Assembly: GCF_000001735.4 (NCBI RefSeq)
Contig: NC_003070.9
Span: 16,043,971-16,107,970, forward strand
Origin: Arabidopsis thaliana
Lineage: Eukaryota; Streptophyta; Magnoliopsida; Brassicales; Brassicaceae
Direction: 5' to 3'
Length of the DNA: 64,000 bases
In this document: in pieces, positions 2,339 to 49,869 of the stretch
How positions within the stretch are numbered: the stretch's first letter is position 1
Layout of the letters: each line of letters begins with the position of its first letter
Position numbers and translations under genes: made by a program
The notes under the pieces: model-generated
Told to the model about the DNA's origin: nothing
The model's database searches: none
The model's input: the letters and a program-made list of their open reading frames with translations, nothing else

Positions 2339-3597
2339 ATGCCTAGGCAAACAAGGAGCACAAAACAGAAGGAGCTTATCAACTTGTCTGTTCAGGCCTT
2401 GGGAAAACTTGAACGCAGCAACCGAAAAACTCAGAAATTAGCAATGGCTGACAGAGTCATTAGAGCTGATGCAGAAGGAGTTTTAAGAGATGAAGATTGG
2501 CAAGCCTACAATGAGGCTGGTCAGAGATTGGATGATCATGGACTCATCCTACCTGAGGACGCCAATGAGGATCAGGCGCGCCTCAATGCGCAAATAGCTG
2601 CCAGAGACGCAGCAGGGCTCGCTGTCGATCGACACAACAGAGGTGTCGATCGACACCATCGGGAGCAGCACGACGACGCGATTGGTGTCGACCGACACAA
2701 CAGAGGTGTCGACCGACACCAACACCAGATTTTTGCAGCTATTCCTCCAGCTGCGGAACCACGTCGTACTCTTGGGGATTTCAACAGGCCTGACTTGTTC
2801 TATGCTAATCGATCAGTGATTGTACCCCCACCATTCCAAAGGAACGACTATGAGCTGAAGCCTGGCTACTTTGCTTTAGTTGGTCATCATCCTTTCCATG
2901 GCTTATCTCATGAGCAGCCAATGGATCATATCGAGAGATTTGAGGACTTTGTTCTGAGCATCAAGGCTAATGGAGTCTCAGAGGACTACCTACTGTGCAA
3001 GCTCTTCCCTTATTCACTTGCTGGAGAAGCAGCTTCTTGGCAGAAACAACTTAAAGCAGGTTCCCTTAAGACTTGGAGAAGCATCAAGATAGCCTTCTTG
3101 AATAATTTCTACGATGACGCTAAGTCTGAAGAGTTGAGAAAGCCTCACTTAAACAAGTTGTCTACCTTCACACAAGGTCCAGTTGAAGCTTTCAAGGTTG
3201 CTTGGGTTCGTTTCAAGGAGTACCAACGAGATTGCCCACATCATGGTTTCAGTGAGGTACAACTTCTAGGTACCTTCTTCAGAAGAGTTGTTTGGAGATA
3301 CCAGATGGCTCTAGATGCAGCGAGCAATGGTAACTTCAACACACATTACCCAGCTGATGCAACAACCCTGATAGATAACCTCGCTTGCAGCAACAGCACC
3401 AAGAATTTGATTTTGAGAGGAAGAAGATTGATGGAGCTATTTCAGGAAATCAGATGGCAGAGGTGAATGCTAAGCTGGATTCAGTTCATAACTTGCTCAC
3501 AGGGAAGAAGCATGTCCACATTGCAGCTGCAAAAGAGACTATTGAGCCTGAGCCTGAGTCAAAGGAAGGAGTCTTCTACATAGATGGTCAGGAATAA
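2339..3597 (+). pseudogene. gag (capsid region, Retrotrans_gag) of element A, one frameshift
   Basis: I chose the ATG at 2339 (MPRQTRSTKQKELINLS); the open frame upstream has no earlier ATG. The N-terminal 110 residues include a spacer with four GVDRH-type repeats encoded by the palindromic motif. Then comes the Athila-type capsid segment, with PMDHIERFEDFVLSIKANGV, LCKLFPYSLAGEAASW, IAFLNNFYDDAKSEELR and CPHHGFSEVQLLGTFFR. Near 3395-3420, after LIDNLACSNS, the frame shifts. The native continuation is in another frame, from about 3410 to a stop at 3595-3597 (EFDFERKKIDGAISGNQMAEV). No CCHC zinc knuckle is visible. The product would package element RNA. It is disabled here but only lightly damaged. 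Confidence 0.85.
2623..2718. repeat. Palindrome array, four sites in gag spacer
   Basis: Twelve-base cores at 2623, 2644, 2686 and 2707. The first two are perfect TGTCGATCGACA; the last two are TGTCGACCGACA. Each pair is spaced 21 bp start to start. Here they are read as V-D-R-H. Confidence 0.9.
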
Positions 3598-4078
3598 AGG
3601 AAGTTTGGGCAGCCACATGGCAACTTCAGTGGCAACAGGTTTACATGGAACCAGGGTTCCTCCAACTACACTCTAAAGCCTGCTTTCCAGAAGACCTTTC
3701 CTCAAAGCAGCTTTCAGAGGACCTATGGTAATTCAACTTACCAAGCCCCCCTCCACCCTCAGCAGAGACAAGAATGGAATCGATGCTTGAGCAGATTCTG
3801 GAGAGCCAATCAAAGCTTGTTGTGGAGTTTAATGGCAAGTTTGATGTTTTCTACAGAGATCTTAATGGGAAGATCGACAATCTGAGCTCTCACTTGAAGA
3901 AGCTAGATGTACAGGTAGCTCAAACTACACAATCTATCAAGAGACAAGAGAGTTTTCTTCCTGGTAATCTTGATGCTAACCCAAGGAAGAGCTGCAATGC
4001 CATCTTGATTAGAGAAGGAGATGATGTGTGGGAGGAATTGGACACTGAAGACGAGTTGGAGCTCGCAGTTGCAGAGAT

Positions 4079-4188
4079 GGTGTCGACCGACACCCTCCTG
4101 TGTCGATCGACACCATATGGGACGCTTTTCTCAGAGACGACTCAATACGACGGTGTCGATCGATACCCATCTAGTGTCGATCGACACT
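4079..4188. repeat. Palindrome array, four sites in gag-pro spacer
   Basis: Cores at 4081 (TGTCGACCGACA), 4101 (perfect), 4154 (TGTCGATCGATA) and 4175 (perfect), with pair spacings of 20 and 21 bp. Within this one reading frame the sites are translated in three different phases: VSTDT, CRST, and GVDRY/SVDRH. Confidence 0.9.
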
Positions 4189-5076
4189 GGATCCGGACTG
4201 CACCTTGTGAGGTGCAAGTACCTATGCAGCCCGAGCCCGTTTACATTCCTCCTATCCCTTATCCGAGGAAGCGTCGTTCTAAGAAGGAGATTCATGCTGC
4301 TAAGTGCACAGCCATAATGGAGAAGATCCTCCATACTCTTCATAAGGATGCTTCTGAGACATCTTCCGCCTCACTCAACAGGTATGTCAAGCGACTTGTT
4401 GACAAAGGAATTAGCTTAGATGAAGCTAAGCTACTTACCAGAGACATCAGTGCAATCATGCTGCCTAAGGCCAAGAAGGAGAAGGTACAGAGAGTAGACA
4501 TAGCTGAGTACATCCGCACCATTACTCCTGGTTAGACCACTGAGACGCTTTTAGATCCAGGTAGCTTTGTTCTTGATTGCTCTATCTCCACAAGCAGATT
4601 CAGCCGCTCTTTGTGTGATCTGGGATCAAGCATTAACCTCATGCCTAAGTCTGTTGTTGAGAGACTAGGCATGACTCAGTACAGGCCTACTCGCATCACT
4701 CTTCTCTTCGCGGATCGTTCCAAGCGAATCCCTGAAGGAATCTTTGAAGATGTTTCTGTTAAGGTTGGTAACTCCATAATCCCTGCTGATTTCGTGGTCC
4801 TGGACTATGAGAAGGAACTCAAGGATCCTCTTATCCTTGGAAGAGCATTCCTAACTATAGCTAGTGCTAGGTTTGATGTGAAGAGAGGGAGAATCTCTCT
4901 CAAGGTTTGTGATTTGGAGATGAAGTTTGGCATGGATGGTTCAGAGCTTACTAAGCCTGTCAGTTGCATTGCTTCCAGCATAGACACACCTCCTCAAACT
5001 GATCAGAATCCCACCACAGAGCCACACAAAACGCTCCAACCTGCTCAGCTCGCCAATGAGAGTTGCAAAGCAACGG

Positions 5077-5110
5077 TGTCAATCGACACCACTACCCTTG
5101 TCGATCAAGA
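5077..5110. repeat. Palindrome pair after protease domain
   Basis: TGTCAATCGACA at 5077 (read as VSIDT) and a degenerate partner TGTCGATCAAGA at 5099, spaced 22 bp. Confidence 0.75.
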
Positions 5111-5316
5111 CCTTCGGGTTTCACAGACAGAGGATTCTGCACATTCTCTTCAGCCCACACCACTTGAGGACCTATGTGATAAGTTCTCTTCTCTCTCTTC
5201 TCCTGTTTATCTTTGATTAATTCTTTGGATTATTCGAAGACTGCTTCACAAGATAACAAGCGTAGAGTTCCTCGAAAGCTTTTTTGTCCTATTGTTCTTA
5301 CAGGTGACAAGAAGAG

Positions 5317-5350
5317 TGTCGATCGACACACCCCTTCGTGTCGATCGACA
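5317..5350. repeat. Palindrome pair in 3' noncoding region
   Basis: Two perfect TGTCGATCGACA cores at 5317 and 5339 (spacing 22 bp) beyond the last recognisable coding domain. Confidence 0.88.
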
Positions 5351-5471
5351 CCAAAAGCTGCTCCAACCAGATCTGTTTACACACCGCCTTGGAAGGCGAG
5401 GAGGCAGCAGCATTCCTCCACCACACCACCCACATCCTGAACTCCGCCAAGTCAAACTATTGACTCAAAAC

Positions 5472-5496
5472 AAGCGCTTGGTGGGAGGCAACCAAC
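5472..5496 (+). other. Conserved post-gag-pro block (GCGCTTGGTGGGAGGCAACC)
   Basis: The 20-mer GCGCTTGGTGGGAGGCAACC follows the last open frame. Element B has the inverted equivalent at about 48660-48682 (GGGTTGCCTCCCACTTAGCG), and element D has a looser version at about 55968-55990. Conservation in noncoding DNA of separate elements suggests a cis function, which I cannot name. Confidence 0.55.
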
Positions 5497-5596
5497 TGGT
5501 TTTAATTTTCTTTTCCCTTTCTTTTATTTTCTTTTATTTTTGATTTATTTTTTCCACTTTCTCTGGATTTGAATGCCACTGGGGACAGTGTCATTT

Positions 5597-5610
5597 AAGT
5601 CTGGGGGAGG
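5597..5610 (+). other. Internal polypurine-tract-like site
   Basis: AAGTCTGGGGGAGG matches the terminal tract at 6522-6535 in 13 of 14 bases and lies 925 bp upstream of it. It may be a second plus-strand priming site or a duplicated remnant. Confidence 0.5.
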
Positions 5611-6521
5611 TTCATACTAATATGGCTTTTATTTTTGTTTCTTATTAATTTTCGTTTTGCAGTTCATTTAGTTATTTCTTTTATTTCTTTAAAAAAAAAA
5701 AAACGTTTTGTTTAGTTTAGTTAGGAATCATGATCTATATTTCTCTTGTTTATTGCTTGATTGATGAGTATTGCAGGTTCGAGTCAATCTGACTATTGGA
5801 AAATCTAGATGGTAAAGCAACAGACTTGAGAATATCGTAGTTTCCAACTCAACCACTAAGGCTGGAGCTAATCTCACTGATCTTACTTTTACCTCTTCAA
5901 GCGGTTAGTATTCATAGATCTTGACTCCTTGTTCATACCTGACATTGAGACCAATGTGATAAAAATAATATGTTCCTCTCCCCTTATAAAAAAAAAATAT
6001 ATGATGAGAGATTGAGACGACTTTCAGATAGTGCATAGGGGGAAGAATGTTTCCTATGACCCCATTATTATACATTATTTGGAATGATCAATTACAAAGG
6101 TTGGAAAAATGTTGAGGGTGTCGATCCAGTACGCGAGTTCCCCTTTGTTTACTCTCGAAAAAGAATAACTCTGGGGGAGAGAAAAAACACCAAAAAAGAA
6201 AAGAATATATAAAGAATGGTCAATTTATCATGGTATAATACAGGAATGAGTCTAGAAGGATCTTGAATGTTGGCTTGTTTGATGAGACCCAGCGATGAAA
6301 GCCTGGTGGATATAGTTGTGGAACTTAGGCATGAGATCTAGAATGTTGTGTAAGCTTGTAGAGAAGTACATGTTGGTTAGGATTTGATTAGACTTGTTAA
6401 GCATATGGACTTAGTTCGGATGATCATGGCAATAGGTAAGAGAATGTTGGGAGTTCCTTTGTTTTCAAAACCTCTTCCACGGGTTCGGCTTTTGTGTTTT
6501 GCTTGAGGGCAAGCAAAAGCT

Positions 6522-6535
6522 AAGTCTGGGGGAGT
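6522..6535 (+). other. Polypurine tract of element A
   Basis: AAGTCTGGGGGAGT abuts the 3' LTR start TGATATAACC at 6536. Its position directly before the LTR is diagnostic for the plus-strand primer. Confidence 0.8.
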
Positions 6536-6734
6536 TGATATAACCCTATTTTCACCGATTTTATCTATGTTTTAGGTATACGATTTTGAGTCTTTATGTT
6601 ATTTCTCGAGTCTTTTTAGTGTCTTTTCAGGTATTCTATGCAATGGGACAATAATGGAGATAAGGAGACATTTTGCAGTAAAATCTAAGGAAAAGGAAGG
6701 TAAAGATGATTTTGGTTCAGGAATAACTGAGGAG

Positions 6735-6767
6735 TGTCGATCGACACACTCTTGGTGTCGATCGACA
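6735..6767. repeat. Palindrome pair in 3' LTR
   Basis: Two perfect cores at 6735 and 6756 (spacing 21 bp), about 110-140 bp upstream of the putative TATA box. This DNA is noncoding. Confidence 0.9.
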
Positions 6768-6877
6768 CCAGTTTCGGCCCAGTAGAAGTCCATGACGCTT
6801 TCAAGTTTACAGAAGAGGAAATTTGCCCCAGAGGACTTTCCTGTTTGCATTATTAGTCACTGGATGTTTTTAGGGTT

Positions 6878-6888
6878 TTATATATATT
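6878..6888 (+). promoter_or_regulatory. Putative LTR TATA box
   Basis: TTATATATATT lies about 345 bp into the LTR. Related LTRs keep a TA-rich run just before GGTCATTGTTTAGACCTA (for example 35580-35598 on the minus strand). It is the best TATA candidate; the transcription start is not demonstrated. Confidence 0.5.
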
Positions 6889-7745
6889 GTTTTTAGACCT
6901 AAGTTTCTTTTATCAAGTCTTTTATCATGTTCTCTGCAAACCCTATTGTGAAAGACATAAGTTATTCATCTCCTGTTCTTGAGAGATTCAGTCCAGTTCT
7001 TAATACAGTGAAGAGATCTTTTCTAACTCTTATCTCCTTTGCTGTGTTTATTCTTTCATACTCAATTATGTTGATTGTTTCATTCAATATGTCTGAGAAA
7101 TCTGCTTGTTAGGAATAGGGTTTCTCATTAGGGATTCATATGGTTTAGTAGATTGCCCCTTTTGCTAGGTTATCTATAGAATTCTTCATCTTTAATTATG
7201 CTTAATGCTAGATTTAGAGTAATTAACTAGATCTTGAATCAAGACAATAGATATGCCCGCCATAGGTATCTATAGTTGGATCTATTATTTGATGAGTCTG
7301 GTTTATAGGTGTTTAATAAGAATCGGCCTATCTACTAAGATGAACAATTGAACTCGTTAAGAATGCATATTTAGGTTAATAGTTTCTCGGCTTCTCCGGT
7401 TATTATTAGCTATGGATATAGGGAGTTTCGCGGCACGCCCACCGGTTATTCCATAATTAGAGTTTTAGTTTAAGAATGGTTCGATAACAACCTAGCTTTC
7501 TTAGATCTACTAACCAATAGTTTCCTGAGAATACCCTGTTCGTAGCTCTTTTCCTAATCGTTTACAACCCAATCATTCTGCTATTTTCTTACTTTGTTTT
7601 CTTACTATTTCACTCATACCCTGCTAGCTTAATCTCGACATTTAACTCACTGTTTGAACAAAAAAACTCCGTAAATTCAATCCTAAAATACTGCAATTGA
7701 TCTCTGATTTGAGAGAGTAGTTATAGGTAATTTGAACCATATCAG

Positions 7746-8035
7746 AAACCTCACCCATAAGTCGAAAAGTCTTCTATATGTGTGTCATATTACATGTTCA
7801 AAATCTGAAAAGGGAAGAGGCAATATGTCATTGGCTTTGCTTCCTGTTGTAGATTGTAGTCTGATTCCTATTGGCGGTGCACATTCACCACGAGGTCCTG
7901 ATGATATATATGTTAACAAATATTTCTTGACCAAGACTGAGTTAATGCAGAAGATGAGGCAATGAGCGTTGAAGTGGAAGTTTGAGTTCATGTCTAGATG
8001 GTCTAACAAAGATAGAGTGATTTTGTGTGTATAGA
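7746..8035 (+). pseudogene. MULE (MuDR-type) transposase N-terminal fragment
   Basis: Translation shows GPDDIYVNKYFLTKTELMQKMRQ broken by a stop, then ALKWKFEF and SNKDRVILC. This resembles the N-terminal MuDR domain of plant MULE transposases, in which a short Phe-rich motif precedes K-[FW]-x-F-E-F and a Cys motif. Only about 95 codons survive, with at least two stops. Neither terminus nor the DDE domain is present. It abuts the 3' LTR of element A and was probably the older resident sequence. Confidence 0.5.
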
Positions 8036-8049
8036 TGCTATACTGTCAA

Positions 8050-10554: not shown

Positions 10555-10560
10555 TTTAGA

Positions 10561-11784
10561 ATCTATTAATTTTCTGGAACGTATACAAGGAGATATATGT
10601 TGACCAATTCACCCACAATGTGGAACATTTAGAAATTTCATGGTCTTAATCGATGCATCAACAAGATGGTCACATGTAAACTTATTATCAACTCGCAACA
10701 TGGTGTTGCAAGACTATACTTGCTTAATTGATTAAATTACGAGAACTTTTTTTCAGATTTTTCTCTAAAGACAATTCTTCTTGATAATGCTGGTGAATTC
10801 ACATCTCAGGACTTTAATGATTATTGTATGCCTGTTTGGATAAGTGTTGAACATCTTGTTGCACATATTCGTACACAGAATTGTTTAGATGAATCATTGA
10901 TTAAACGTCTCCAATTAATTGCTAGACCATTACTTATGAAATCTAAACTCCCAACTTCTATGTGGGGACTCCCTATACTACATGCAGCGACATTAATTCG
11001 CATCAGACCTACAAGTAATAATGAGTTCTCCCCATTACAATTGGTTTTTGGTCAGAAACCAAATATTTCCCATTTGATTTTTTTTTTGGGGGATTTGTTG
11101 TATATGTTCATGTTGCTCCACCACAACGCTTTAAACTGGGACCTCAAAGGATGTTAGGAATATATGTTGGATATGAATTACCCTCGATAATTAAATACCT
11201 CGAGCCGTCCACAGGGGACCAATTTAAGGCTTGATTTGTAGATTGTAATTTCAATGAATATGTTTTTCCAACATTAGAGGGAGATAATAAACATCTCGGA
11301 AAAGAAATAAGTTGGAAAGCATTATCATTGACTTATCTTGATCCTCGTACTAAGGAATATGAACTAGCAGTTCAAAAGATAATACATTTACAGATATAAG
11401 CCAATATGTTTCCAGAATCATTTACTGACCTGAACAGAGTGACCAAGTCACATATTCCAGATGAAAATGCTCCAATTAAAATTGATGTCCCAGAAGGACA
11501 ATATCAAACTGCTAGTAAGTCTAGAGCACGCATGAAGCGTGGTAGACCAATCGGTTCCAAAGACAAGAATCCTCGTAAAAGAAAAGGAGTAGAAATTAAT
11601 AATGGCCAGACCGAGGAAGTTAGAGACATTAGACATGAATAATGAAGAGATTCAAGTACCTGATCATGAGAATGATAAAGAGAAAGATAATGAAGAGATC
11701 TTTATTAATTATACCATGTCTGGAATAAAATGAAACCGAAAGCATATTCGATGTCGATGATATTTTTGCATGCAATATAGCAGT
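10561..11784 (+). pseudogene. Copia pol: integrase core and C-terminal part
   Basis: Decayed coding for FLERIQGDIC, FMVLIDASTRWSHVNLLS, ILLDNAGEFTSQDFNDYC and the later HAATLIRIRPTSNNEFSPLQ, LVFGQKPNISHL is a recognisable Copia rve domain with the D-A-S and D-N-A-G-E-F motifs. Downstream KRGRPIGSKDKNPRKRK is the basic, Pro-rich linker usual in this Copia group. Multiple frameshifts and stops (for example near 10730 and 11155) separate the pieces. The linker is cut at 11784 by CACTA-1 and resumes at 15205. Confidence 0.82.
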
Positions 11785-24570: not shown

Positions 24571-26158
24571 CATTCAAAGCCAGAAAAAATGCTTAACCTA
24601 CTCTTAACAACCAATCATTGAACAAACTACACTCATTAAGTTTGATTGAAAGACACTCACAAAACAGACACACCAAAACTGTAACACACATTTATCACAC
24701 ACCAAACACAAAGCATTCAATAAGTGAATCATATCTAACCTAATCTAAATCTAAAAATTCAATACAAGGGAGGGCGATGCATTACCTCTCTTCAATGGTG
24801 AAAAGGCTTCCATTTCATCATCATGTCATCTTTCAAAGTTTCTCATTATTATAACCTGAAAATAAAACAAAACAATTTATATGAAATTCATGTCGTCATT
24901 ACCAAAAGATTATCATTTACAAACGATAATCTCAAACAAACCAAACAAACTAGCTTTAACTAAACTTTTATAACAAAACAGACACAAATTATGTTCTTAA
25001 AACTAAAGTCTTACCTAGATTATGAGTTAAGACATTTAAAAACATAACGATTCATTACCTTTATTCAAGGTGACTAATGTAACAGACATCCATCGCAAAA
25101 TTATCCCTCCATATGCCTACATATAAACATCAAAATAAATCTGAGAGATTTTTATCAAAATCTTATCATTTTCAACACATATTTTTTAAATAAATCTAAC
25201 AATCATTCGTATAGCAACAAGTAATAATCAAATTAAAGTATGAACTTACCCTAATTTTACAAAAACCGAATCATAAATACGAAAGTTGGCTAACTCTCAC
25301 CATATGTTTTATAACAAAACAAACAAACCAAACAAACTAGCTTTAACTAAACTTTTATAACAAAACAGACACAAATTATGTTTTTAAAACTAAAGTCTTA
25401 CCTAGATTATGAGTTAAGAAATTTAAAAACATAACGATTCATTACCTTTATTCAAGGTGACTAATGCAACAGACATCCATCGCAAAATTATCCCTCCATA
25501 TGCCTATATATAAACATCAAAATAAAACTGAGAGATTTTAATCAAAATCTTATCATTTTCAACACATATTTTTCAAATAAATCTAACAATCATTCGTATA
25601 GCAACAAGTACTAATCAAATTAAAGTATGAACTTACCCTAATTTTACAAAAACCGAATCATAAATACGAAAGTTGGCCAACTCTCACCATATGATTGACA
25701 CATCATCAATTTAGCATTTGTGATGTGTCTACTAATTAATTAATGTAAACTTTTGACTTCTAATTCATAGTTTAATGATATATTTATTATTGGATTTTAC
25801 ATATAATTTTATTTGGACATTAATTGTACTAATACTAAATTTATTTTATCATTACATGTTTTTTCAATAAAATTATTTTATTGGTTTTCTCATACTCGAA
25901 GCTTTTTTCGTAATCTTAACTCAAAGTATGAGTGTATAATAGCCGTTGATTTTGGTTTGAGTAGACTATTCTCTTAAATTTATATCTATAAAATAAACCA
26001 CTGAAGGTGAAGAGTACGTAAAGAGGTTTATCAACAAATTCTTAGGTTTCTAGATACCCAACATTACCATATATTAAATTGGTTAAGGACGAACATTGTT
26101 TAAAAATTGTATATATAATGCATTGTTAAGAACATTGTTAGAAACATATATTTGAATA
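24571..26158. other. AT-rich DNA with a 387-bp tandem duplication
   Basis: No coding region recognised. The main content is the duplication described at 24941-25693. The rest is AT-rich and may include the end of Harbinger-2. Confidence 0.6.
24941..25693. repeat. Direct tandem duplication, period 387 bp, about 1.95 copies
   Basis: CCAAACAAACTAGCTTTAAC starts at 24941 and recurs at 25328. Both copies run with few changes to AACTCTCACCATATG (ending near 25305 and 25693). Differences are scattered substitutions (for example GTTCTTAAAAC versus GTTTTTAAAAC). Confidence 0.9.
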
Positions 26159-26518: not shown

Positions 26519-27370
26519 CGAGGTACTTTTCATTTTTCTACTTCTGTGATTTTGCTTTTGTTTCTTTGAGTCACTGATTCAAATATGTAGTTTATAATTG
26601 TAATTTCGTTTTGGTTTTGTATTTCTCTGTTGTATTCTTAGTTGATTTCTTCTAATTTATCTGTTTTCATTAGTTAAATTTTTCAATTTATTTGATTCTA
26701 TTTTTGTATCTGTGGAGAAAAAAAATCTGAGTTTGTGTGAGTTTTGATCTCCAAATTTTCATCTCTTACCACCAATTGATCTGTTGTGCATCTTAATTTT
26801 TTTGAATATAAATTTACAAGAGCATCACTTACCCAAAAGCATCGACTCCCTCAGATTCAAATTTTGGTGATTTAGCTCAACTTTAGGCTCATCTACACCA
26901 CTTCTAACTCAAACGTTATATTCTATTACCATGCTCTGTTTTTTTTTAAGTTATAGGACTCTGTTTTAAGCATCGACTTTGTTTCTTTTAAGTAAGCTTG
27001 TAAATATACCTTCATATTTTGATATATAACATTCACATTTTATCAAAATAAATTTGTCCGACTCTCTTTTATATGTTGACAGTTGTGTGTGTGTATGTGT
27101 TTGATCCAATTGTTTTAAAATTATTAATAGTAAGTTCACTGGATCGTGAATAATATAGTTTGGTATGTATGCATCCAAGAGTCTTATAGACTATTAATTC
27201 ATTAATTCCTAGTATGCATCCAACGTGTGATAGATTGCATTATTAAGTGTAACTAGACTATTAAGTTATAGTTTCATGCTAGTGCTGCAACGTGTGATAG
27301 CTTACTTTATTAAGTATTATTCTTATTCAATTGTTAACCGATTATTGTTTATATTTTTTTTCTTTTGCAG
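26519..27370 (+). other. Predicted 5'-UTR intron of hAT-1 transposase
   Basis: A donor-like GAG/GTACTTTT near 26519-26523 follows a GC-richer putative leader. TTTTTTTTCTTTTGCAG ends at 27370, directly before the ATG at 27371. The interval is AT-rich and has no coding potential. Confidence 0.5.
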
Positions 27371-29645
27371 ATGGATTCTTCAGCAAATCCAAACAATACT
27401 GAAAGTAACACAAAAGGAAACGAAGATGAGGGTAGGACTCGACCTATTGATAACAGTAAAGGGAAGAGAAAAAGCGATGTCGCTGATGATGGTGATAGTG
27501 CTAACCCTTGTAAGCCAAAGAAGAAGTTGCAAACAAGGTCTTGGGTTTGGGATCACTTCACGAGAAAAGATGGTGATGATGACCAATGCAAATGTCATTA
27601 CTACAAGAGGTTCTTTGGATGTTCAACAAAATCAGGGACTTCAAACTTGAAGAAACATTTGGATTGCTGCAAGCATTACTCGGCATGGAAAGGACGCCAG
27701 TCTCAGAATGTTATTAATCAAGAGGGAAATCTACAAAGTGGAAAAGTTTCTAAGGAAGTTTTTAGAGAGGCTACGAATGAAATGCTTGTTTTGGGACAAC
27801 TGCCACTTTCATTTGTTGAAAGTGTTGCTTGGAAACATATATGCAGCAAAGCTAATCTCTACAAGCCTCATTCAAGAAGAACAGCTACTAGAGATATTAT
27901 TTTAATGAATGTGGCCAGAAAAGCATCTCTGAAGGATTTGGTTTCAGCTAATAAACGTAGAGTGTCTCTTACAACTGACATTTGGACTGCTCAAGCTACA
28001 GGTGCTAGCTACATGGTAATCACTGTGCATTTCATTGATGAGTATTGGCGTTTAAGAAAGTTTATCATTGGCTTTAAGTACATCGCAGATCACAAGGGAG
28101 CTACAATATCAAGGGTTCTACTTGAGTGTTTGACTGAATGGGGAATAGAGAGGATATTTACCATCACAGTTGACAATGCAACTGCCAATACTAGTGCACT
28201 CAGGAAGTTCCAGAGAGCTTTACAATCACAGAGAGCTGATTCTTTGGTGTTAAATGGAGATTTTATGCACATGAGGTGTTGTGCTCATATCATCAACTTG
28301 ATTGTGAAAGAAGGTCTGCACAAATTGGGTAATCATGTGGAAGCCATCCGCAATGGAGTGCTATATGTGAGATCTTCTACTTCTAGATGTGACTCATTTG
28401 AGCAGAAAGTTGTGACAGGTAAGATGACAAGGGGGAGTTTGCCTTTGGATGTCAAAACAAGGTGGAATTCCACCTATTTGATGTTAACAAGAGCAATCAA
28501 GTTTAAGGTGGCATTTGACAAGATGGAGGCTGAAGACAAGTTGTACAATGACCACTTCTTGGAAGTAGTCGATGGGGAAAAGAGGATTGGACCGCCTACT
28601 ACAATTGATTGGAGGGAAGTAGAGAGGTTAGTAAAGTTTCTTGGCTTATTCTACACTGCTACTTTGGTCGTTTCAGCGTCAAGTATTGTTTGCTCTTACA
28701 AGTGTTATGGTGAGATAGTCACCATAGAAAAAAATCTGCTGGGAATGACTCATAGTTATGATAAAGAGTTGAGGGAAAAAGCTGTTGAAATGAGGGAAAA
28801 ATTCGACAAGTATTGGGATGGACAAAAGAATATCAATAGGATGTTGATAATTGCTAGTGTGTTTGATCCTAGACAGAAAATGGAATTTGCTAAAATGTGC
28901 TTTGAGAAACTTTATGGTGTAGACACTTCAGAAGCCAAGGAGATGTATAATTCTGTTTATGATGTCATGAAGGCTATGCTGAAGGAGTACACTGTCATTT
29001 TCAAGGGACCAAACACACAATCATCACAGTCTAATCCGCCTTCATCTACTGCTGCCAGAGATACTTTTGCATGTGAGTTAGCTGAAGATAGTAATGTTGA
29101 GTTTGAAAGGATGGACAGGTCATATAAAGAGATGGTTAATGAAATTAGGGTTACTGATCCTAAAGATGAGTTAGATATCTATCTGAAGGCAGAGGTAGAA
29201 AATCCTAAGACTCTTCCTGGAATGGAGTGGGATGTCTTGTCTTGGTGGAGACTCAATAGTCAGAAGTATCCAGTTTTATCAGAAATTGCAAGAGATGTAC
29301 TTGCAATGCAAGTGTCATCTGTCGCATCTGAAAGTGCTTTTAGCACCAGTGGTCGTCTTTTGGAGCCAAGTAGAAGCTGCCTTACTCATTATATGGTAGA
29401 GACTTTGGTTTGCCTTGAGCAGTGGTTGAAAAGTGAAATCAAGCTGAGTGAAAACACTTTTCTAACAAATGCACAACTTCTTGCTGATATAGAATTACTT
29501 GATAAGCTTGAGAAAGGTAACTTTATCTATGTAGTTTACTAGTTTTAGTTTTAGATGTTGTTTGAAAACTCTCTTATGTTCTAACACAACTTGGGTGTTG
29601 ATTGAATCTTTTTCAGAGTTTCAAACTGAAGTGAACTTGGACTAA
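27371..29645 (+). CDS. hAT transposase (BED finger, RNase H-like, hAT dimerisation)
   Basis: ATG at 27371, placed just after a splice-acceptor-like TTTTGCAG; 723 codons are open to TAG at 29540. A likely last intron (GT at 29517, AG at 29616) would give join(27371..29516, 29617..29645), 724 aa; hAT-3 keeps the same donor. Domains: BED-like finger at about residues 57-103, catalytic Asp203 in TTDIWTA, Asp268 in TITVDNATAN, CCAH at 303-306, RWNSTYL at 364-370, and the C-terminal dimerisation domain at about 597-690 with WDVLSWWRLNS and MQVSSVASESAFSTSGR (Glu654 is the candidate third acid). The length fits the family. One oddity: the BED CxxC position reads CHYY (Tyr78), so a zinc ligand may be lost. 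Confidence 0.9.
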
Positions 29646-40814: not shown

Positions 40815-40984
40815 TAAATGTGTGAAGTATATGTTTAATTATTTGATAAAACATTTGAATGAATTTTGTTTTATAATATATCATTGAACATTTAATTTGT
40901 TCATGAATATTTCCTATGTAAAATTATTTCTATTTTAAAAGTATAAGGTGACTATTATGCTACTACTTGGCGACTAAATTATAA

Positions 40985-41425: not shown

Positions 41426-41534
41426 ATCATTTAGTGACAATAATACGACTACAATGCGACTACTACAGTGTTAAAAACCCTAAATCGAATCATTTCTCAT
41501 TCCTAACACTTAGCCAAAATATCGAATCAAATCG

Positions 41535-41780
41535 ATCTCTCTTCTTCTTCTTCTTCCTCTGAAACCCTAATCTTCTTCGATCTGTTCTTCTTCTTCTTCA
41601 TTCTTCTTCAATCTTCTTCTATCTTCTTCCTCTCTCAATCTCTTGATCTCTCGATCTCTCGATCTTCTTCTTCTTGTTCGATCTCTCGATCTTCTTCTTC
41701 TTCAATCTCTATTCTTCTTCTTTGATCTTCTTCCTCTTCTTCATCTCTTTGATCTGCCACTTCTTCATCTTCACTTAATC
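41535..41780 (+). promoter_or_regulatory. CT-rich leader of TNPA-like gene
   Basis: A long TTC/TCT run interspersed with GATCTCTCGATCTC, immediately before the TNPA-like coding start. Pyrimidine-rich leaders are common in plant 5' UTRs. No clear TATA box was identified. Confidence 0.5.
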
Positions 41781-41829
41781 GATCTCTAGGGATCTCTCTT
41801 CTTTCAAGCAGATCTCTCCGTCGATCTAA

Positions 41830-44303
41830 TAACGCTGGTCGAGGTGGCTCCCAAAAGCGGAAGACGACGCCTAATGTTACTCAGAGAGACGGCGGTTCAA
41901 CGACCCCAAGACCTTGGGATCTCCCTCATCAATACAACTTCACTCTGGCGCCGGCGGTTCAAGTTCCAGCGACGCAGCCGGCTCAAGCTGATGTTCGTTT
42001 GACGTCAGCCCCCCCCCCCCCCCCACGTACCCGACTATCCACTACCGCTACAACTCTTCCAGAACTCCACCACTCAACCTCAGCGTGGTGGTGCTCCGCC
42101 TCGATCTGAAGAGGTCCACTTCAATCCATCGCCGGAAGAGCCTGCTCAGCAAGATCCTCAGTCGCCGGATACTGACAATCTAGCTCACAGCCACCCTTTG
42201 TCTCAAGGGAACAACTTCCAAGAGGAAGCTCCTGGGACGTTGCCTGAGCTACAAGAAGACTCGGCGGTGGCTCTGCAAGATATTCTCTCAGTGCCAAACA
42301 TGGAGCAGTGGACTTGTGTATTGTCTCCGATTCCCAGGCCAAAAACCGAGTGGTAAGTTCTCTTCCTCTAATTTGTTTTCGTGTTATCTGCATTTGTAGT
42401 GTGTAACCAGTAGACTTGTGAATCCTGAAACATAGTTGTGAATGATGGGTTTTGTTGGATGTTTGTTTTGTTTGCGTAACATAGTAGATTTGTGAATACT
42501 CTTGTGTGCTCTTGTGAATACTCGTGTGTCCTTGTTCAGTTCTATACTTGTGAATCGTGTTCTCTTGTTAATCGAGTCTCTTGTTAATCGTGTTCTCTTG
42601 ATGCTCTATTGATGAAGTTGACTTTGATGTCTTTTAATTGTGTTCTGTTGCTACTCATGCTCTTGTTATGTTCTATAGTATGTTCTCTTCTTAATTGTGT
42701 TTTGTTGCTACTCATGCTCTATTGTTGAACATAGTTGACTTTTGAACTTCGCATGTTTTAGGATTAGACATTTATTATCTGCCTTAGTTTTATACTGTTG
42801 TGTGCTCTTGTTCAGTTCTATAGTGTGTGTTCTGTTGTGAATCTGCCTCAGTTATACCTGTGTAGTGTGTAACATAGTAGACTTGTGAATCTGCCTCAGT
42901 TCTATAGTCTGTTCTCATAACTTTTATTGTGTTTTGATTTTTTAACATGTTTACTTCTTTCATTGTTGCATGTGCTTGGAGGTTTACTCGCGACAGAGGA
43001 TCTAAACTGGTTAGAAAGATCACAAGGATTTTTAATCAAAAGTTCAATGCTCTCTACTATAATTGGTCATGTGTGCCTTTGGCTAAAAGAGAGAGACTGT
43101 TTTTAGAGTTCGCGGTAAGCTTCCTGTATATCTGCTCCTGTTCAGTCATTGTTTTTAGAGTTTTATAGTCTGCTCAAGTTCAGTTCACTAACTTCTTCCT
43201 TTTTTGTAGAAAACTCACCACTGGGATCCATTAATCACAAGGACAGTCCAATATTACTTCAATGAGATCGTCAAGAGGCGCTTGAAGGATATGGTTAGCA
43301 CCGCAAGGAGAACTCGAGAGCAGCCTCCATGGATTGGAGAAACTCTGTGGGGAACAATGTGTGCTTACAAGGACACAGAAGAAGCATAGAAAAAGAGTCA
43401 GACCTATTTCAAAGCTCGTCTCTCTGACCCTAACGGTCTCGGTCCACACATCCACTACTCTGGGCCAAAGTCTTATCAAGAATTCCAAGATAAATTGGTA
43501 AGTGTTTCTGCAAAATCTCATGTCTTTTAGTGACATTCAAATCATAAGTTAGAGTTTTATTGTGTGTGATGTTTAGTTCAAGCTGTGAGTTGACTTGTGA
43601 GGATATTGATCTATGTTTGCAGGAAGAGAAATTGGGAAGACCGGTCCATCTTGGTGAGGTGTTCATCCAAACACACACTAAGTCGGATGGCACTTATGTT
43701 GATCGGAAGGCGGAGAAGATTGCTCTAACTTATGAGCAGAATGTGAGAGATAAGCTGTTTGAACTGGAGGCTGCAGCTTCTGCTGTCTCTGATGGCACTT
43801 CACGACCTCGGGATCTCACAGTAGATGAGTATACAGCCATCTTTCTCGAGGTAAGATGTTGTAGTCTAATTCAGAGTCTTAGAGTCCATTGATACGTTTA
43901 GTCACTAATTGTCTTCCTCTCTATTTCTTGCAGTCCACGGATAGGGATTCAAGAGGCAATCCTTATGGACTTGGATGTCTGAAAGACACTCTAGGCAGTA
44001 CCAACCGTCAACCGCCAACTCGCTGGAGACTCAGCATCCTTTCAAGCCTTAGAAGAACGGCTGCAGGAAGCTCAACGGAAAATTGAAGAGCATGATGCAT
44101 ATAATGAGAAGCGGGATGCGGAGATTGCTGCCCGAGAAGCTGAGTCAGCCCGAGTCATAGCTGAGCAAAAGGACAAGCTCGAACACTTGTCCTTAGTCGA
44201 GAAGTATCTCCGCCAAACCGATCCGCAATTCTTGGAATTCATGGCCACTCACTCTTCCACATCCACTGAGCGTCTCCCAAGTACCCCACCTAATACTCCA
44301 TAG
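41830..44303 (+). pseudogene. TNPA-like (Ptta/En/Spm-type) accessory transposase, six exons, stop and frameshift
   Basis: Exon 1 (to GTAAGT at 42353) is Pro/Gln-rich and contains an 18-base poly-C run; I see no ATG where the frame begins (NNAGRGGSQKRKTTPNV). Exon 2 (about 42979-43113) reads RGSKLVRKITRIFNQKFNAL and YYNWSCVPLAKRERLFLEFA. Exon 3 (about 43211-43498) reads WDPLITRTVQYYFNEIVKRR and, after an in-frame TAG at 43387, QTYFKARLSDPNGLGPHIHY. Exon 4 (43621-43850) reads GRPVHLGEVFIQTHTKSDGT. The last exon (from 43934) has a 1-nt shift near 44020 and then a coiled coil (ALEERLQEAQRKIEEHDAYN) to the TAG at 44301. The product would bind the subterminal TAGTCG arrays. Confidence 0.78.
42009..42025 (+). 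repeat. Poly-C tract
   Basis: An uninterrupted run of about 17-18 C in the Pro-rich first exon of the TNPA-like gene. Length errors in sequencing are possible here. Confidence 0.85.
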
Positions 44304-44559
44304 ATTTAACTTTCCAAACACTATACTTGAACTTATGTTTATTTGAAATAAGTTGTTTGTTTAAGAACAAGATACTTTTATGTGTATTTGAACTTGATTT
44401 TCAAAATATGTATATCTTTTCATAATTTATAGCATTTCGAATAACAAACAACAACAAACCATAACACTAAACAAAAAACAAGAAACCCAACAATTGATGA
44501 CCAAATTCTTATTCGGACAAAACCAGAAGTCGCAAAGAAGTCGTGAATAAGTAGCAAAT

Positions 44560-45120
44560 TAGACGCGTCGTAGTCGTAAAATAGTCACCAAAATTACCGA
44601 CTATTTTAAGACAAACCAAATTAGTCATAACCTAATCGTCAAACAGACGTATAATAGTCGTATTCATTTATACGACTATTATATGACAAAGTATATCATA
44701 TCCTTAGTATTTTACATTTAATCGTTTAATAGTCGGCATATTGTCGTAAAATATTTTACGACAATTTTGCGATTACCTGAAAGATACCCAGGGTTCATTA
44801 TATTTAATTGGAAATTAGTCGTAACATTGTCGGAAGAATTTAACGACTATAGGACGACTATATGTTTCACACGCTTTGTACAGTGTTATTAATCGTGAAA
44901 TTGTCGCCAAATAGTCGCCAATATAATACGACTACTCAACGACTAATTTATATTGTATGGTCGGTTGTCGTAAAGTAGTCGTAAATCGACGACTAATTGA
45001 CGACAACTGGACTTAGCGACTATGGTATAACAACTACTGTCATTAGTCGTGGATTAGTCGTAATTTCAGATTTGACGACTACTAAGCGAGTACTTATTCA
45101 ACTTTCGTCGTGGATTAGTC
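44560..45120. repeat. Right subterminal TAGTCG/CGACTA array of CACTA-3
   Basis: More than fifteen TAGTCG/CGACTA words in both orientations (for example ATAGTCGTATTCATTTATAC, ACGACTAATTGACGACAACT). It mirrors the left array at 36575-36990. Confidence 0.8.
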
Positions 45121-45149
45121 ATAATTTCAGACTTGTATTCTACATTCAA

Positions 45150-46022
45150 AGAAGTAATCTCTAAACCCTTTTAAGTTTTATTCAACTTTTAGTTATGGTT
45201 TACTCAACCCAACTTTTGATTAGCTCCTTTGCCATGAGCGAGTAGATCTCTAGTTGGGTTTGAGGGGGTTTCAAAGGGGAATTCATGGGGACTAATAGAT
45301 CAAAAGTCTAGGTAGGCGGTTTCTATGTTTTTTTTTATCGTTTACACTATTCTTTTAGTTGAGTTTGATCTTAATGCTTGTATGTCCGGAACGCCACCTA
45401 GTACTTGACCTTAGGTATTTCATTCTTTGGCAAAATCTCGTTTGAATGCTTGAACTAACTCAACCGAATAAAGAACTATTACTGTTGCACACCCGCCGAG
45501 TGATACGGACTAATGGGCTAGAATCAAATTTGAACTAAATGATTTGATCTGGTATTTTGAAACCATGTTAGCACTTACTAACTGATAGGGCAACTGAGTA
45601 TGCAAGATATTAGTGATAATAGCCGGCTTTCACCTACTAATCGTTAGGGTTAGCTGGTCTTGATAGAGTTTCGTATGTCCGAGAATTTGGAAGTAAACAA
45701 AGATAACCATGTTATCACCTAGATTGAGATCTATACTTTATTTATTGAACCGTGACATCTGGAGAAACCCCAGATGACCTAACGCTTTCTCTCTTATTGC
45801 TTACCGTTTAGTTTAGTTATTTGTCTCTTAGTTTGGTTACTCATAGCATACAACAACCCCTCTCTTTATTTTGGTTCTAGCTTCACTCTCTTCTTAAGGA
45901 TTTCTCTGAACTACTTCTCTCCTTGTGGATTCGATCCTAAAACACTACTCCGATATACTGTGCACTTGCAGTAGTCGTGTGGTCTTTCAAGTAAAATACT
46001 GAGGCGAAATAAAACACGCATC
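45150..46022 (+). repeat. Athila-like LTR of another subfamily, plus orientation
   Basis: The right part (GTGGATTCGATCCTAAAACA ... AAAACACGCATCA) has the same layout as the end of the element A LTR (GTGAATTTGATCCTAAAATA ...) and ends in CA at 46022. No primer site follows; the sequence passes directly to gag fragment C. The left edge at CACTA-3 is not precise. Confidence 0.55.
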
Positions 46023-46553
46023 AAGAGCAGAACGCAGAAGAAGTTGGTGTCGAGCGACACCCCTTGGGTGTCAATCGACACCAACCACAAATTCTTGCAG
46101 TTATACCTCCAGCAGTGGAACCACGTCGTACTCTTGGGAATTTCAACAGGCCCGACCTGTTCTATGCCAATAGGTCACCGATCGTACCCCCATCCTTCCA
46201 GAGGAACGACTATGAGCTGAAGTCTGGCTACTTTGCTTTAGTTGGCCAACATCCTTTCCATGGCTTATCTCACGATAAGAATGGACCACATTGAACGTTT
46301 TGAGAACCTCGTTCTGAGCATCAAGACTAATAGAGTCTCAGAGGACTACCTACTCTGCAAGCTCTTCCCTTACTCATTTGCTGGGGAAGCTGCTTCTTGC
46401 CTGAAGCAATTGAAAGCAGTTTCACTCAAGACTTGGAGAAGCATCAAGATAGCTTTCTTGAATAACTTCTATGATGATGCTAACTCTGAGGAGCTGAGAA
46501 ATAAGCTGCCTACCTTCACCCAAGGTCCAACTGAAGCTTTCAAGGCCGCTTGG
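46023..46553 (+). pseudogene. Gag fragment C (family A/B), interrupted by element B
   Basis: Starts abruptly at sequence matching 2660 of element A, inside the gag spacer with two palindrome sites. It then encodes RRTLGNFNRPDLFYANRSPI, FQRNDYELKSGYFALVGQHP and, after a frameshift near 46265-46280, MDHIERFENLVLSIKTNRVS, LCKLFPYSFAGEAASC, IAFLNNFYDDANSEELR and GPTEAFKAAW. It is cut at 46553 by the 3' LTR of element B. N-terminal gag and anything downstream are absent. Confidence 0.85.
46048..46080. repeat. Palindrome pair in gag fragment C
   Basis: TGTCGAGCGACA at 46048 and TGTCAATCGACA at 46069, spacing 21 bp, at the place matching 2686/2707 in element A. Confidence 0.85.
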
Positions 46554-47689
46554 TGATATGAGTCAAATTACCCTAATGACTACTCTTTCAAATAAAGAGG
46601 TCGGTTATAGCACTTAGGGATCGAATTCAACAAAGTTCTCAGATCACACAATAGATTAACAGTTTCGAATAAAGCTAAACAGAAAATATTATAAAAATAA
46701 AAGACAAGAAAGCAATAAAAGAGATTGGTTGTAGATTCGGATGATTAAGACGTTGGGTTTAGGAAAATGCTCAAGAAATATCAGAATATTATATTAGGAT
46801 TATTAACGAACCATTTTTGAACTCAAATCACTAATATTGAGTAACCGGTGGCGTTCCGCGAAACTCACTATGCTTAATAGTATTGATCCCAACTCTCTTG
46901 TAAATCCTTAGAACTAAGCAAGCATTATAATCAAGTTTGATAAGTTCACCTAAGTAATTAACGCTAGCCCGCATCTAAATACTAGGCTCATCTAAGATAG
47001 TTCCAGTAATAGATACCTATGGCGGGTATACCTATTATCCTACAATCAAGTTCTAGTTACTTACTCTAGAACTAGCATTAAGAACAATCAAAGATGAAGA
47101 ATTCTAAATATATTATCCTAACAGGGTTTTTGGTCTACTAATTCATCTAAATCCGTAATTGAGAATCCCCAAACCTAACAAGAGAACTACTCAGACATGA
47201 TTATCAAAGAACAAAACATGTTTGAATAAGAAATCATTGTAAGAAACAATAAGAGAATAGAGTTAAGAAAGATCTTCTCTAAAGGGAGTCTACAAAAGGT
47301 TTTTCTCCCAAGAATAAAAGAGATAATAAGTGTTAGGTCTAAACAAGGACCTTTAAAACTATATATATGACCTAAAACGTGATGGGCCTTTTTTAGAAAT
47401 AAGGGAAAGTTCTAGGCTGAATTTGAAAATCTTCAAAACATCAATAAGTTGCGCAATTGAATTGTCGTCAGGAGGGGTTGTGTCGATCGACACCTACGTC
47501 AATTTTTGTCTATGGATTGCTTTTGCAGCTTAAGTTGTCTGTTTTGCACCAGAATGCTCCATAATCTCCAAATGCATCCCAAACATGTAAAGACCTAAAA
47601 AAGATTAGAAAAGACTCTACAAATAACAAAAGGACTCTAAAACTTATACCTAAATCATAGGTAAAACAGATAAAAATAGGTTTATATCA
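46554..47689 (-). repeat. 3' LTR of element B (1136 bp)
   Basis: On the minus strand it runs TGATATAAACCTATTT to GACTCATATCA, matching the terminal style of element A and aligning with 61458-62260. It carries one palindrome site at 47481. Confidence 0.87.
47481..47492. repeat. Palindrome site in element B LTR
   Basis: A perfect TGTCGATCGACA, without a clear partner at 21 bp. It lies in the LTR region upstream of the TA-rich promoter-like stretch, comparable to the pair at 6735-6767. Confidence 0.88.
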
Positions 47690-49209
47690 ACTCCTCTGGA
47701 CTTAGCTTTTGCTTGCCCTCAAGCAAAACACAAAAGCCGAACCCGTGGAAGAGGTTTGAAAACACAAAGAAACCTCCAACATTCTCTAGTCCATTGCCAT
47801 GATCATTCTAACCAAATCCATATGCCTAGCAAGTTTAATCAAATCCTAACCAACCTGTACTTCTCTGCAAGTTTGCACAACATTCTACATTCCATACCTA
47901 AGTTCCACAACTATATCCACCAGGCTTTCATCGTTGGGTCTCATCAAGCAAGCTAACATTCAAAAACCTTCTACACTCATTCATGTACTATACCATGATA
48001 AAATGACCATTCTTTATATATATTTTTTTTCTTTTGGTATCCTTTCTCTCCCAGACTTATTCTTTTTGAAGAGTAAACAAAGGGGAACTCGCATACTTGA
48101 TTGACACCCTTGGCATATTTCCAACATTTGTAATTGATCATTCCTAACAATGTATAATAATTGGATCATGGGAAACATTCCTACCCCTATACACTACCGA
48201 AAATCATATCAATCTTTTTTTTTTTTTTTATTAGATAAGGGGAGAGGAATACTTTTCTTTTTCACATTGGTCTCAATATAAGGTATGAAAAAGGAGACAA
48301 GTTCTATAAACACTAACCGTGAGATTAGCTCTAGCCTTAATGGATTGTGTTGCAAAGTACGATATCCTCAAGTCTGTCGGTTTGCCATCTTTTCAATAGT
48401 CAAATTGAGTTGAATCTGCAGCATTAATCAACAAGGCAATAAACTAAAGAATAGAGATCATTATTCCTAACTAGATTTTGACTCAGTAAAACGATTCAAA
48501 AATAAGAAAATAAGAGGAAGAATAAGACTCAAAAGAAAAACGTAGTTAGTAACTACCTTCCCTAGACTTAAACGTCACTGTCCCCAGTGGCATTTAAATC
48601 TGAAGTTAGCGGAAAAAACGTAAATAAAGGAAAAAGAAAAAGAAAAAAATCATACCAGTGGGTTGCCTCCCACTTAGCGCTTATTTATAGTCAATAGCTT
48701 GACTTTGCTGGGATTCAAGCATCAGGTGGATCAGAAGGTGGCAGTAAATGCTTCTTAGAAGAACATCGCATCATCCATGGTGGTATAGGAGCATTTAGCG
48801 CTTGAGATCGACCATGGAAATGAGGAACATCAGTAGGGTGACACTTAGGTATGGGTGGTATACTCCTCTTTCCTTCACAATCATCAAAAGAAGAAACAAG
48901 CACTCGACGAGAAACTCGTGGCTTGCTTAACCGTGAAACAGTCTTGGAAAATTTAAAAGTCTTACAGATGAAATCAGGAGGTGTAGGTGGAGGAGATGAG
49001 TACCTTAGCCGTTTAGGAGGTGGATTGAGTAGTAGAGGTGCAGTGCTTGATTTGGCAGTCTGTCTTGGACTTGCAGCATCGATTACAGCCGTGATAAACG
49101 ATTCGAGTGCAGTCTGTTGTGGGTGTCGATCGACACTATTCAGCTCTACAATCTGTTCTGAGACAACCCTTGTCTTTCTTTTGTCCTCCTATTTCTGTGG
49201 AGTCTTGTT
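47690..49209 (-). other. 3' noncoding region of element B
   Basis: The inverse of the 3' noncoding region of element A: CTTGAGGGCAAGCAAAAGC near 47705-47730, the TCCCCAGTGGCATTTAAAT block near 48582, and the GCCTCCCACTTAGCGC block near 48665. A short frame at 48715-48903 matches the tail after the protease in A, but the protease itself is missing. Confidence 0.7.
49124..49135. repeat. Palindrome site downstream of gag in element B
   Basis: Perfect TGTCGATCGACA; no partner recognised nearby. Confidence 0.88.
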
Positions 49210-49869
49210 CTAAATAATGCCAGTTACATGTGCAGAGAACATCATCACACCATGCTCATTATTCAAATCCTTAGTAACCATTCTCTTAACATAATGTCTG
49301 ACTATAGAAGAAGACTTCACAACATCTATAAGTGGCATCTCTACAATAAGCTTATCCATCATAGCTTTGCATCTAGCATCATCTAGCTCCTGTTTGGACT
49401 TCCTAGGACTCTTGGGAAAAGAAACCTTGGGTTTTGTTACATTTTCTGCAACAGATATCGGGTTTTGGAGAATTTGCATGTTTGGACTTGGTTGGTGTCG
49501 ATCGACACCCAGTTCGTGTCGGTCGACACTGTCGGGTTCTGTAGTGTCTGCGTTGGCTGGTGTCAATCGACACCCAGCAGTGACGGTCGACACTGGTGTC
49601 TGGTTTGCAAAAACTGCATCATCATTTTCTTTCAAATTGACGATTTTGGCTGTAGGAAGTTCCCTTTGAAGTACTGGATTTAGTTGTTTTCCACTCCTTA
49701 ACTGGATAACACTAATATCTGCTATATTTGTAGTCAAATGCTCGGTCCGATTGTTCAATAATTGAATCATCCCATTCATATCTTCGGATAATGCAACCAG
49801 TTTGTGATCAAAATCTGTTGTCTGGATCTTTTGACTTTTGAGAATCTGTTTGAACATTGATTCAATCAT
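49210..49869 (-). pseudogene. Gag-pro linker of element B
   Basis: 219 codons: MIESMFKQILKSQKIQTTDF (compare MESMLEQILESQSKLVVEF in A), a spacer with SVDRHELGVDRHQPS, and a basic block SFPKSPRKSKQELDDARCKA matching RKRRSKKEIHAAKC in A, then IVRHYVKRMVTKDLNNEHGV. This is the linker between capsid and protease. It stops just where the protease should begin, and the next 300 bp toward the 3' end do not encode one. Coding upstream (toward 50171) is broken by stops. Confidence 0.75.
49496..49592. repeat. Palindrome array, four sites in gag-pro linker of element B
   Basis: Cores at 49496 (perfect), 49517 (TGTCGGTCGACA), 49561 (TGTCAATCGACA) and 49581 (TGACGGTCGACA); pair spacings 21 and 20 bp. Confidence 0.87.

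Follow-up and report, generated by a model that had tools for sequence, protein, structure and literature searches.

Athila is a lineage of Ty3 long terminal repeat (LTR) retrotransposons in which 11 families have been defined from gag, and pol-less families with genes under selection have already been described, according to the parts of the report by Marco and Marin that deal with them (PMC2410132). Here we describe a 12-bp palindrome of the form TGTCG-AN-CGACA, which recurs in pairs about two helical turns apart in the Athila-like element A (1365..7744, forward strand) and its relatives. Element A lies in a stretch of 64,000 nucleotides of the Arabidopsis thaliana genome (C1:16043971-16107970 in genome G000, 119,662,809 bases in 7 contigs), hereafter called the window, which is a nest of transposons; positions are those of the window unless a contig or locus is named. 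We consider it rather probable that the paired palindromes act as a polar, cooperative dimer-of-dimers DNA-binding module of an Athila lineage, serving transcription or anti-silencing. The subject touches two open questions, namely how retrotransposons in the pericentromeres of plants use or evade silencing by the host, and how Athila families without pol persist alongside those that have it.

By analogy, the nearest precedent is the repeated motif (RM) of the Sireviruses, and the nearest proven mode of action is that of VANDAL/VANC. The RM boxes are conserved, repeated short dyad palindromes that precede the TATA box in the LTR and have extra copies in the interior of the element; their function is, as far as the source describes it, unproven (PMC2829016). 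Sireviruses belong to Ty1/copia, whereas the elements treated here belong to Ty3, as indicated by the PF03732 gag of element A and the RNase H-integrase order in a relative, L050. The RM core is CGG-CCG, with the exception of ACAATCGATTGT in Tnd-1, and the core of the present palindrome is CGATCG; RM boxes cluster in the LTR and before env, and the sections of that paper devoted to them describe neither fixed two-turn pairs nor a general placement in coding sequence (PMC2829016). What the two systems share in position is a palindromic box upstream of the LTR TATA box, which is also found in the Athila LTR.

VANDALs are DNA transposons. In Arabidopsis they carry a dispersed, short, family-specific motif bound by a factor that acts on the whole element; in the portions of the two reports that treat it, this motif (YAGTATTAY) is arrayed with uniform orientation in tandem repeats of noncoding DNA, and the factor is known and transposon-encoded (PMC5735166, PMC10398659). 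The Athila palindrome differs from a motif of the VANC type in coming in pairs, many of them in coding frames and others in noncoding DNA. An analogy with VANC was drawn in the initial annotation of this window; as a way of acting it is reasonable, although the analysis turned up no binder for the Athila pairs. The Drosophila gypsy element with its Su(Hw) insulator array is a Ty3/gypsy element with repeated short sites for a host factor, and these sites are clustered in one untranslated region, unlike the palindromic pairs, which are spread across genes.

SIRC cassettes of A. thaliana consist of direct repeats of 10-29 bp with diverse spacers and are mostly pericentromeric; some lie in ATHILA elements and some are palindromic, and the main text, which lacks the string GTCGA, gives in its treatment of the cassettes neither a two-turn rule nor a binding hypothesis for the palindrome (PMC10342631). 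The SIRC catalogue may contain the Athila pairs without naming them. No description of the palindrome or of its pairing was found in the open-licence literature, supplements (e.g. the SIRC tables) lying outside the search; the matches to the 12-mer or to its 11-12-letter pieces, in those parts of the papers that were opened (including PMC6284570), are polymerase chain reaction primers.

Sites and spacing in the window and in the genome

The window was scanned for the 12-mer palindrome with at most two mismatches, and spacings are given from start to start. Between 2623 and 49592 there are 22 sites (11 exact, nine with one mismatch and two with two), of which 20 fall into ten pairs, spaced 20 bp (two pairs), 21 bp (six) and 22 bp (two), and two are singles; this rescan reproduces exactly the sites, perfect copies and pairs counted in the initial annotation.

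All pairs of element A are read on the forward strand. Two of them lie in gag, g1 (sites at 2623 and 2644, 2623..2655) and g2 (2686 and 2707, 2686..2718), both spaced 21 bp; the sites of g1 are exact and those of g2 carry one mismatch each, at base 7. Further downstream, m1 (4081 and 4101, 4081..4112; 20 bp) has its sites in two different reading frames and is followed by m2 (4154 and 4175, 4154..4186; 21 bp). Of the two pairs spaced 22 bp, p1 (5077 and 5099, 5077..5110) lies inside an open frame that starts with the protease domain, and p2 (5317 and 5339, 5317..5350) lies 3' of the protease frame. The LTR pair (6735 and 6756, 6735..6767; 21 bp) is found about 200 nt into the 3' LTR, with TATATA downstream at 6879. 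Fragment B carries one forward-strand pair (46048 and 46069; 21 bp). Element C, on the reverse strand, carries two exact single sites, one at 47481..47492, about 199 nt into its LTR and with TATATA at about 324, the other at 49124..49135; it also carries two pairs, one of which (49496 and 49517, 49496..49528; 21 bp) aligns with m2 of element A and the other (49561 and 49581, 49561..49592; 20 bp) with m1. Because A, B and C are related and both pairs of C have these counterparts in A, the ten pairs of the window do not represent ten independent events.

In the genome (119.66 Mb) the exact 12-mer is present at 853 places and its reversed-letter control at 5. At the rate of the control about 0.003 sites are expected per 64 kb, and chance is therefore excluded for the sites of the window. 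When the two central bases are left free (TGTCGNNCGACA) the count is 1219 against 43 in the control, and this excess, together with the strict pairing rule given below, offers a direct handle for checking data sets from DNA affinity purification sequencing (DAP-seq), chromatin immunoprecipitation (ChIP) and footprinting.

Exact sites form 171 pairs at spacings of 12-42 bp (0-30 bases between), against 0 in the control, and 168 of the 171 (98%) are spaced 20-22 bp: 6 at 20 bp (8 bases between), 61 at 22 bp (10 between) and, by subtraction and on the assumption of one entry per start which the search output suggests, about 101 at 21 bp (9 between). No exact pair at 12-19 bp (0-7 bases between) occurs anywhere in the genome, and the three pairs outside 20-22 bp, at 23, 39 and 42 bp, are not chains of exact sites. 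Relaxed pairs at 20-22 bp number 332, again against 0 in the control. A spacing of three turns (31-32 bp) is absent among the 16 exact pairs listed at 23-52 bp; two turns are used and the mere sharing of one face of the helix is not, which would favour direct contact between neighbouring bound dimers. The same exact-pair search gave just two loci in a prokaryote collection of 257 Gb, with spacings of 18 and 35 bp, on the contigs L052 (an Acidobacteria metagenome-assembled genome) and L051 (Nocardia), and no exact pair in viral contigs.

About 4.8 kb to the right of the window, at C1:16112754-16112845, five exact sites form a 20-bp tandem array with identical gaps, and a variant site, TGTCGACCGACA, is placed 20 bp before this array, at 16112734. 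On a chromosome arm (L001:1501-1524, C1:9902289) an exact site abuts a site with one mismatch, at a spacing of 12 bp; a fragment that matches the LTR region of element C at 73% is found about 220 bp away.

Conservation of the sites and polarity of the pair

A search of the genome with the gag DNA of element A delivered at least 49 matches (40 of 100 candidates scored). The 20 loci that were best after A itself served as the sample of the A family; they were picked by gag homology, with a query that itself contains g1 and g2. Together with the window these loci hold 234 sites at up to one mismatch. Distances of up to 40 bp between neighbouring sites are 20, 21 or 22 bp in 94 of 95 cases (10, 60 and 24, respectively), the remaining one being 16 bp. 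The pairs occupy seven fixed slots, with spacings of 21 bp in the LTR, 21 and 21 bp in g1 and g2, 20 and 21 bp in m1 and m2, and 22 and 22 bp in p1 and p2, and a unit has been lost or gained in some copies, e.g. L037, L042 and L032.

Within the A family, where all P values are optimistic owing to the relatedness of the copies, non-CpG site columns are more conserved than the others (diversity 0.059 vs 0.095, P=0.004). Each site holds two CpGs; among readable dinucleotides these have decayed in 45 of 467 cases (9.6%) in sites, compared with 182 of 1218 (14.9%) elsewhere (per-CpG P=0.01). Taken slot by slot, g1, m1, m2, p1 and p2 have sites of lower diversity than their gap. The sole freely varying position of the site is base 7, which is changed in 53 of 238 cases and to all three alternatives; base 6 is nearly fixed (4 of 237).

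Sites outlast the neighbouring bases over deep divergence. In the m region, elements A and C are identical at 44 of 48 site positions, 5 of 17 gap positions and 82 of 178 flank positions, and both spacings (20 and 21 bp) are kept, while the distance from m1 to m2 differs by 9 bp between the two elements; for this reason no claim is made for a longer-range 10.5-bp phasing between pairs, which was viewed by eye only. In gag, A and the diverged relative L002 agree in 22 of 24 site positions, 3 of 9 gap positions and 76 of 135 flank positions. The first LTR site of A matches the site of L050 in 12 of 12 positions, with flanks at 67 of 150. Between the LTRs of A and C, where the second site is lost in C, identity is 16 of 22 over the pair and 74 of 147 in the flank. 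Over the diverged relatives as a whole, sites are about 92% identical, gaps about 31% and flanks 46-56%, the site value being partly a matter of ascertainment, as it was exact sites that led to the retrieval of L002 and L050, and sites likewise that led to C; no such selection acted on the partner sites or on the spacing.

The two sites of a pair are not equivalent. In 113 intact pairs of the A family, the upstream site has a changed base 7 in 48 cases, and the downstream site a changed base 6, its mirror position, in 3. Throughout the genome, in pairs whose other site is exact, the inner centre base is relaxed in 110 pairs and the outer one in 13. A plain symmetric double dyad does not predict such an asymmetry between upstream and downstream sites, and the putative bound complex probably has a direction.

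The initial annotation had also considered a signal in the RNA, by which the palindrome or the pair would form a hairpin or a kissing loop and dimerise or package the genomic RNA in the manner of retroviruses. In modelled folding, six of the seven pair segments of element A do form a strong hairpin of site 1 with site 2 (-22 to -27 kcal/mol), p1 being the one that does not, but the substitutions in the family do not follow these stems. Selection for stems in RNA would lead one to expect more C>T than G>A changes, since the former still pair as G-U; 21 of each were counted, one slot in which the change is ancestral being excluded. Among site1:site2 cells with one change 97 are broken and 42 kept, with 4 double changes that keep the pairing, and for stems within a single site the figures are 37 broken, 33 kept and 1 double. 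The free base 7 is likewise unmatched by its partner base 6 in the 113 pairs just described. Across spacings of 18-42 bp the modelled energy of the hairpins shifts gradually from -24.4 to -28.8 without an optimum at 20-22 bp, so that RNA gives no reason for the spacing. With neither compensatory nor wobble-tolerant evolution of the stems, we judge dimerisation or packaging of the RNA to be very unlikely; the substitution patterns suggest that selection is more likely to act on DNA than on RNA.

A putative binding module, its placement and its alternatives

In the proposed module, one dimer of a sequence-specific protein would occupy each TGTCG-AN-CGACA palindrome, and two dimers placed two helical turns apart would touch and so bind cooperatively. 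The module would be polar, in that one palindrome (in oriented copies, that on the upstream side) accepts any central base in its inner half, a tolerance that the remaining half-sites lack. Elements of an Athila lineage, whether or not they have pol, would retain a single site or a pair ahead of the TATA box in the LTR, along with several pairs spread over their coding frames, the likeliest use being the recruitment of an activator or an anti-silencing factor to the element. What the analysis establishes is the sites themselves, with their spacing, polarity, positions and deep constraint; that a protein binds them, does so cooperatively and activates the element or counters its silencing is our inference. 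The near-exclusive two-turn spacing in the genome and the deep retention of the sites lend support to the DNA-level cis motif with cooperative pairing on one face of the helix that was put forward in the initial annotation.

Within the LTRs of A, C, L031 and L050 the site is located at 181-201 nt, and TATATA, assigned as a TATA box by its string only, follows at 324-344 of the LTR in A, C and L031. To judge from these positions, the LTR site stands where an upstream activating element would. In L050 the interval from RNase H to integrase contains two pairs, spaced 21 bp and, in the L050 copy, 19 bp; a further pair (21 bp) is situated downstream of a frame resembling ORF-1. The idea that the motif serves only pol-less elements finds no support, as L050, with its matches to RNase H, integrase and ORF-1, carries these pairs. 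The 19-bp pair (L050:501-531) has a possible counterpart at C2:4843654, spaced 22 bp and with the gap CCACTGGAAC, which makes an in-frame deletion of 3 bp in the L050 pair likely.

The sites of element A fall in all three reading frames as well as in noncoding DNA and the LTRs. Selection on a repeated peptide would be consistent with the four gag sites of A, all of which read VDRH; the sites are, however, translated as VDRH, VSTDT or CRSTP depending on the frame, and with the placement in LTRs this means that the peptide is not the target. We therefore reject a peptide repeat and give it next to no credence. The coding placement in all frames suggests instead a constraint at the DNA level over protein genes, which matters for claims on such elements that are based on the ratio of non-synonymous to synonymous substitution rates (dN/dS).

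A host factor might also use the pairs against the element, by nucleating silencing at them much as REM-GDE1 brings in RNA polymerase IV (Pol IV) at different motifs. In favour of such a role, Athila elements are heterochromatic and silenced. Recruitment of Pol IV by specific sequences does exist in Arabidopsis, but the REM-GDE1 motifs, in the part of the report that presents them, are TTTTGCTTAT and AAGCGGAT repeats and thus unlike the palindrome (PMC12270911). Elements would moreover be expected to shed sites that attract silencing, yet the sites are conserved, and we regard host-driven nucleation as quite improbable.

Auxin response factors (ARFs) or another B3 protein could be the binders in view of the half-sites, TGTCGA or, when base 7 is C, TGTCGG, both of which conform to TGTCNN. 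ARFs bind TGTCNN, best TGTCGG, and their composite sites IR7 and IR8 (inverted repeats) have dyad half-sites of the same kind at a different spacing, binding at wider spacings being attributed to oligomers in the sections of the source on this subject (PMC10690724). The half-site geometry of a 21-bp pair is IR0, DR15 (direct repeat), ER9 (everted repeat) and IR21, not IR7/IR8, and a changed base 7 may be A, C or G, with no preference for TGTCGG alone. The half-sites fit ARF dimers and the spacing does not; ARFs or other B3 proteins are highly doubtful as binders.

In a narrower version of the cooperative DNA-binding module, the factor would be supplied by the elements themselves: acting in trans, it would read the polar two-turn pairs that run through the coding regions in every frame, mark pol-bearing and pol-less members and protect them from silencing. 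We put this version forward as a speculation and think it rather unlikely. If true, it would constitute the first VANC-like anti-silencing system in an LTR element, as we know of no earlier one.

Several observations weigh against the proposed binding module. Element D has zero sites at up to two mismatches in the window scan, and the motif is thus not common to all Athila elements. The LTR slot holds a single site in C and in L050, which means that this slot can do without pairing in some elements. Conservation relative to neighbouring bases, on which the initial annotation had made the cis motif depend, holds over deep divergence, but in raw columns within the A family, CpG included, the difference is not significant (diversity 0.077 vs 0.098, P=0.14). 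The gap of g2 (0.033) is less diverse than its two sites (0.103 and 0.068), the gap of the LTR pair (0.073) is less diverse than its site 1 (0.103), and two of the 14 sites (site 1 of g1 and site 2 of p2) exceed their flanks in diversity by a small margin. The constraint signal is accordingly weaker within the close family, with a gap as conserved as the sites in two of the seven slots. Finally, the middle five bases of 28 oriented 9-bp gaps agree above shuffled sequences, both uncollapsed (0.386 vs 0.270) and once gaps a single change apart had been collapsed (0.305 vs 0.260, n=14, P=0.02), whereas no resemblance is left after two-change collapse (0.264 vs 0.251, n=8, P=0.33, low power). Common descent of the pairs is possible on these figures, and an independent origin can therefore not be claimed.

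Such resemblance would also be expected of mutational spread without function, in which template switching or recombination copied one ancestral module of 33-36 bp around the elements, its spacing being passed on by inheritance alone. The elements are related, the pairs of C align with pairs of A, arrays with identical gaps exist (C1:16112754 and C3:11490939), and losses and gains of units are visible in the copies. Single-linkage clustering of 101 distinct gaps, taken from the matches listed and not from all pairs, gave 41 clusters at an edit distance of 1, 5 at a distance of 2 (one of them with 95 gaps) and 1 at a distance of 3. In the initial annotation the pairs were taken to be more than a single copied tandem unit; the gap sequences do differ, but they grade into each other, and a weak resemblance persists until the two-change collapse. 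Simple tandem duplication might have been the sole origin: the gaps differ, yet 95 of the 101 chain together and true tandem arrays exist. Against spread without function, sites and spacing persist where the gaps have diverged to about 31% identity, although unselected sites should decay alongside the gaps, and CpG decay is lower in sites than elsewhere. Either pairs with this one spacing arose repeatedly, or the present pairs are ancient copies with near-saturated gaps in which sites and spacing survived; both options need selection on sites and spacing, a persistence that unselected spread does not predict. We consider spread without function unlikely, though it deserves to be taken seriously.

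Host elements and other features of the window

The direct repeats of element A, 5534 bp apart, and its Pfam matches mark it as an Athila-like LTR element of the Ty3 type that has gag and protease. According to limits set by reading the sequence, the 5' LTR is truncated (about 1365-2213) and the 3' LTR extends from about 6536 to 7743. The gag open frame (2264..3466, forward strand), with g1 and g2 in its first half, matches PF03732 above the cut-off (E=2.1e-16), and the protease is a weak match to Asp_protease_2 (E=1.5e-4), at 22.9 bits below the cut-off of 24.3. No pol was found in element A among frames of at least 150 aa.

Near its 3' LTR, element A shows homology to L050 (389 bp at 82%). 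The domains of L050 are RT_RNaseH, Integrase_H2C2, rve and PF03078, in a stretch that excludes the reverse transcriptase part. RNase H followed by integrase is the order that marks Ty3, and in L050 it is accompanied by the ATHILA ORF-1 match. Judged by its gag and protease and by the homology to L050, element A belongs with the Athila lineage of Ty3 LTR retrotransposons.

Fragment B (46019..46560, forward strand) is a piece of gag of the A family with 84-86% identity to A. Element C (about 46581..50100, reverse strand, limits approximate) is a diverged Athila-like relative of A with an inverted match to the 3' region of that element; one of its LTRs lies at about 46581-47690, and a second LTR copy is matched from about 61473 (repeats 46581/61473 and 46790/61694). 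It is interrupted by element D (50172..60723, reverse strand), an Athila element with ATHILA ORF-1 (PF03078) and gag that is nested in C.

A tandem duplication of 387 bp, 97% identical, is found at 24933-25693 in AT-rich DNA. Two long frames, at 27338-29542 and 63051-63842, resemble by eye what we take to be transposases of the hAT type.

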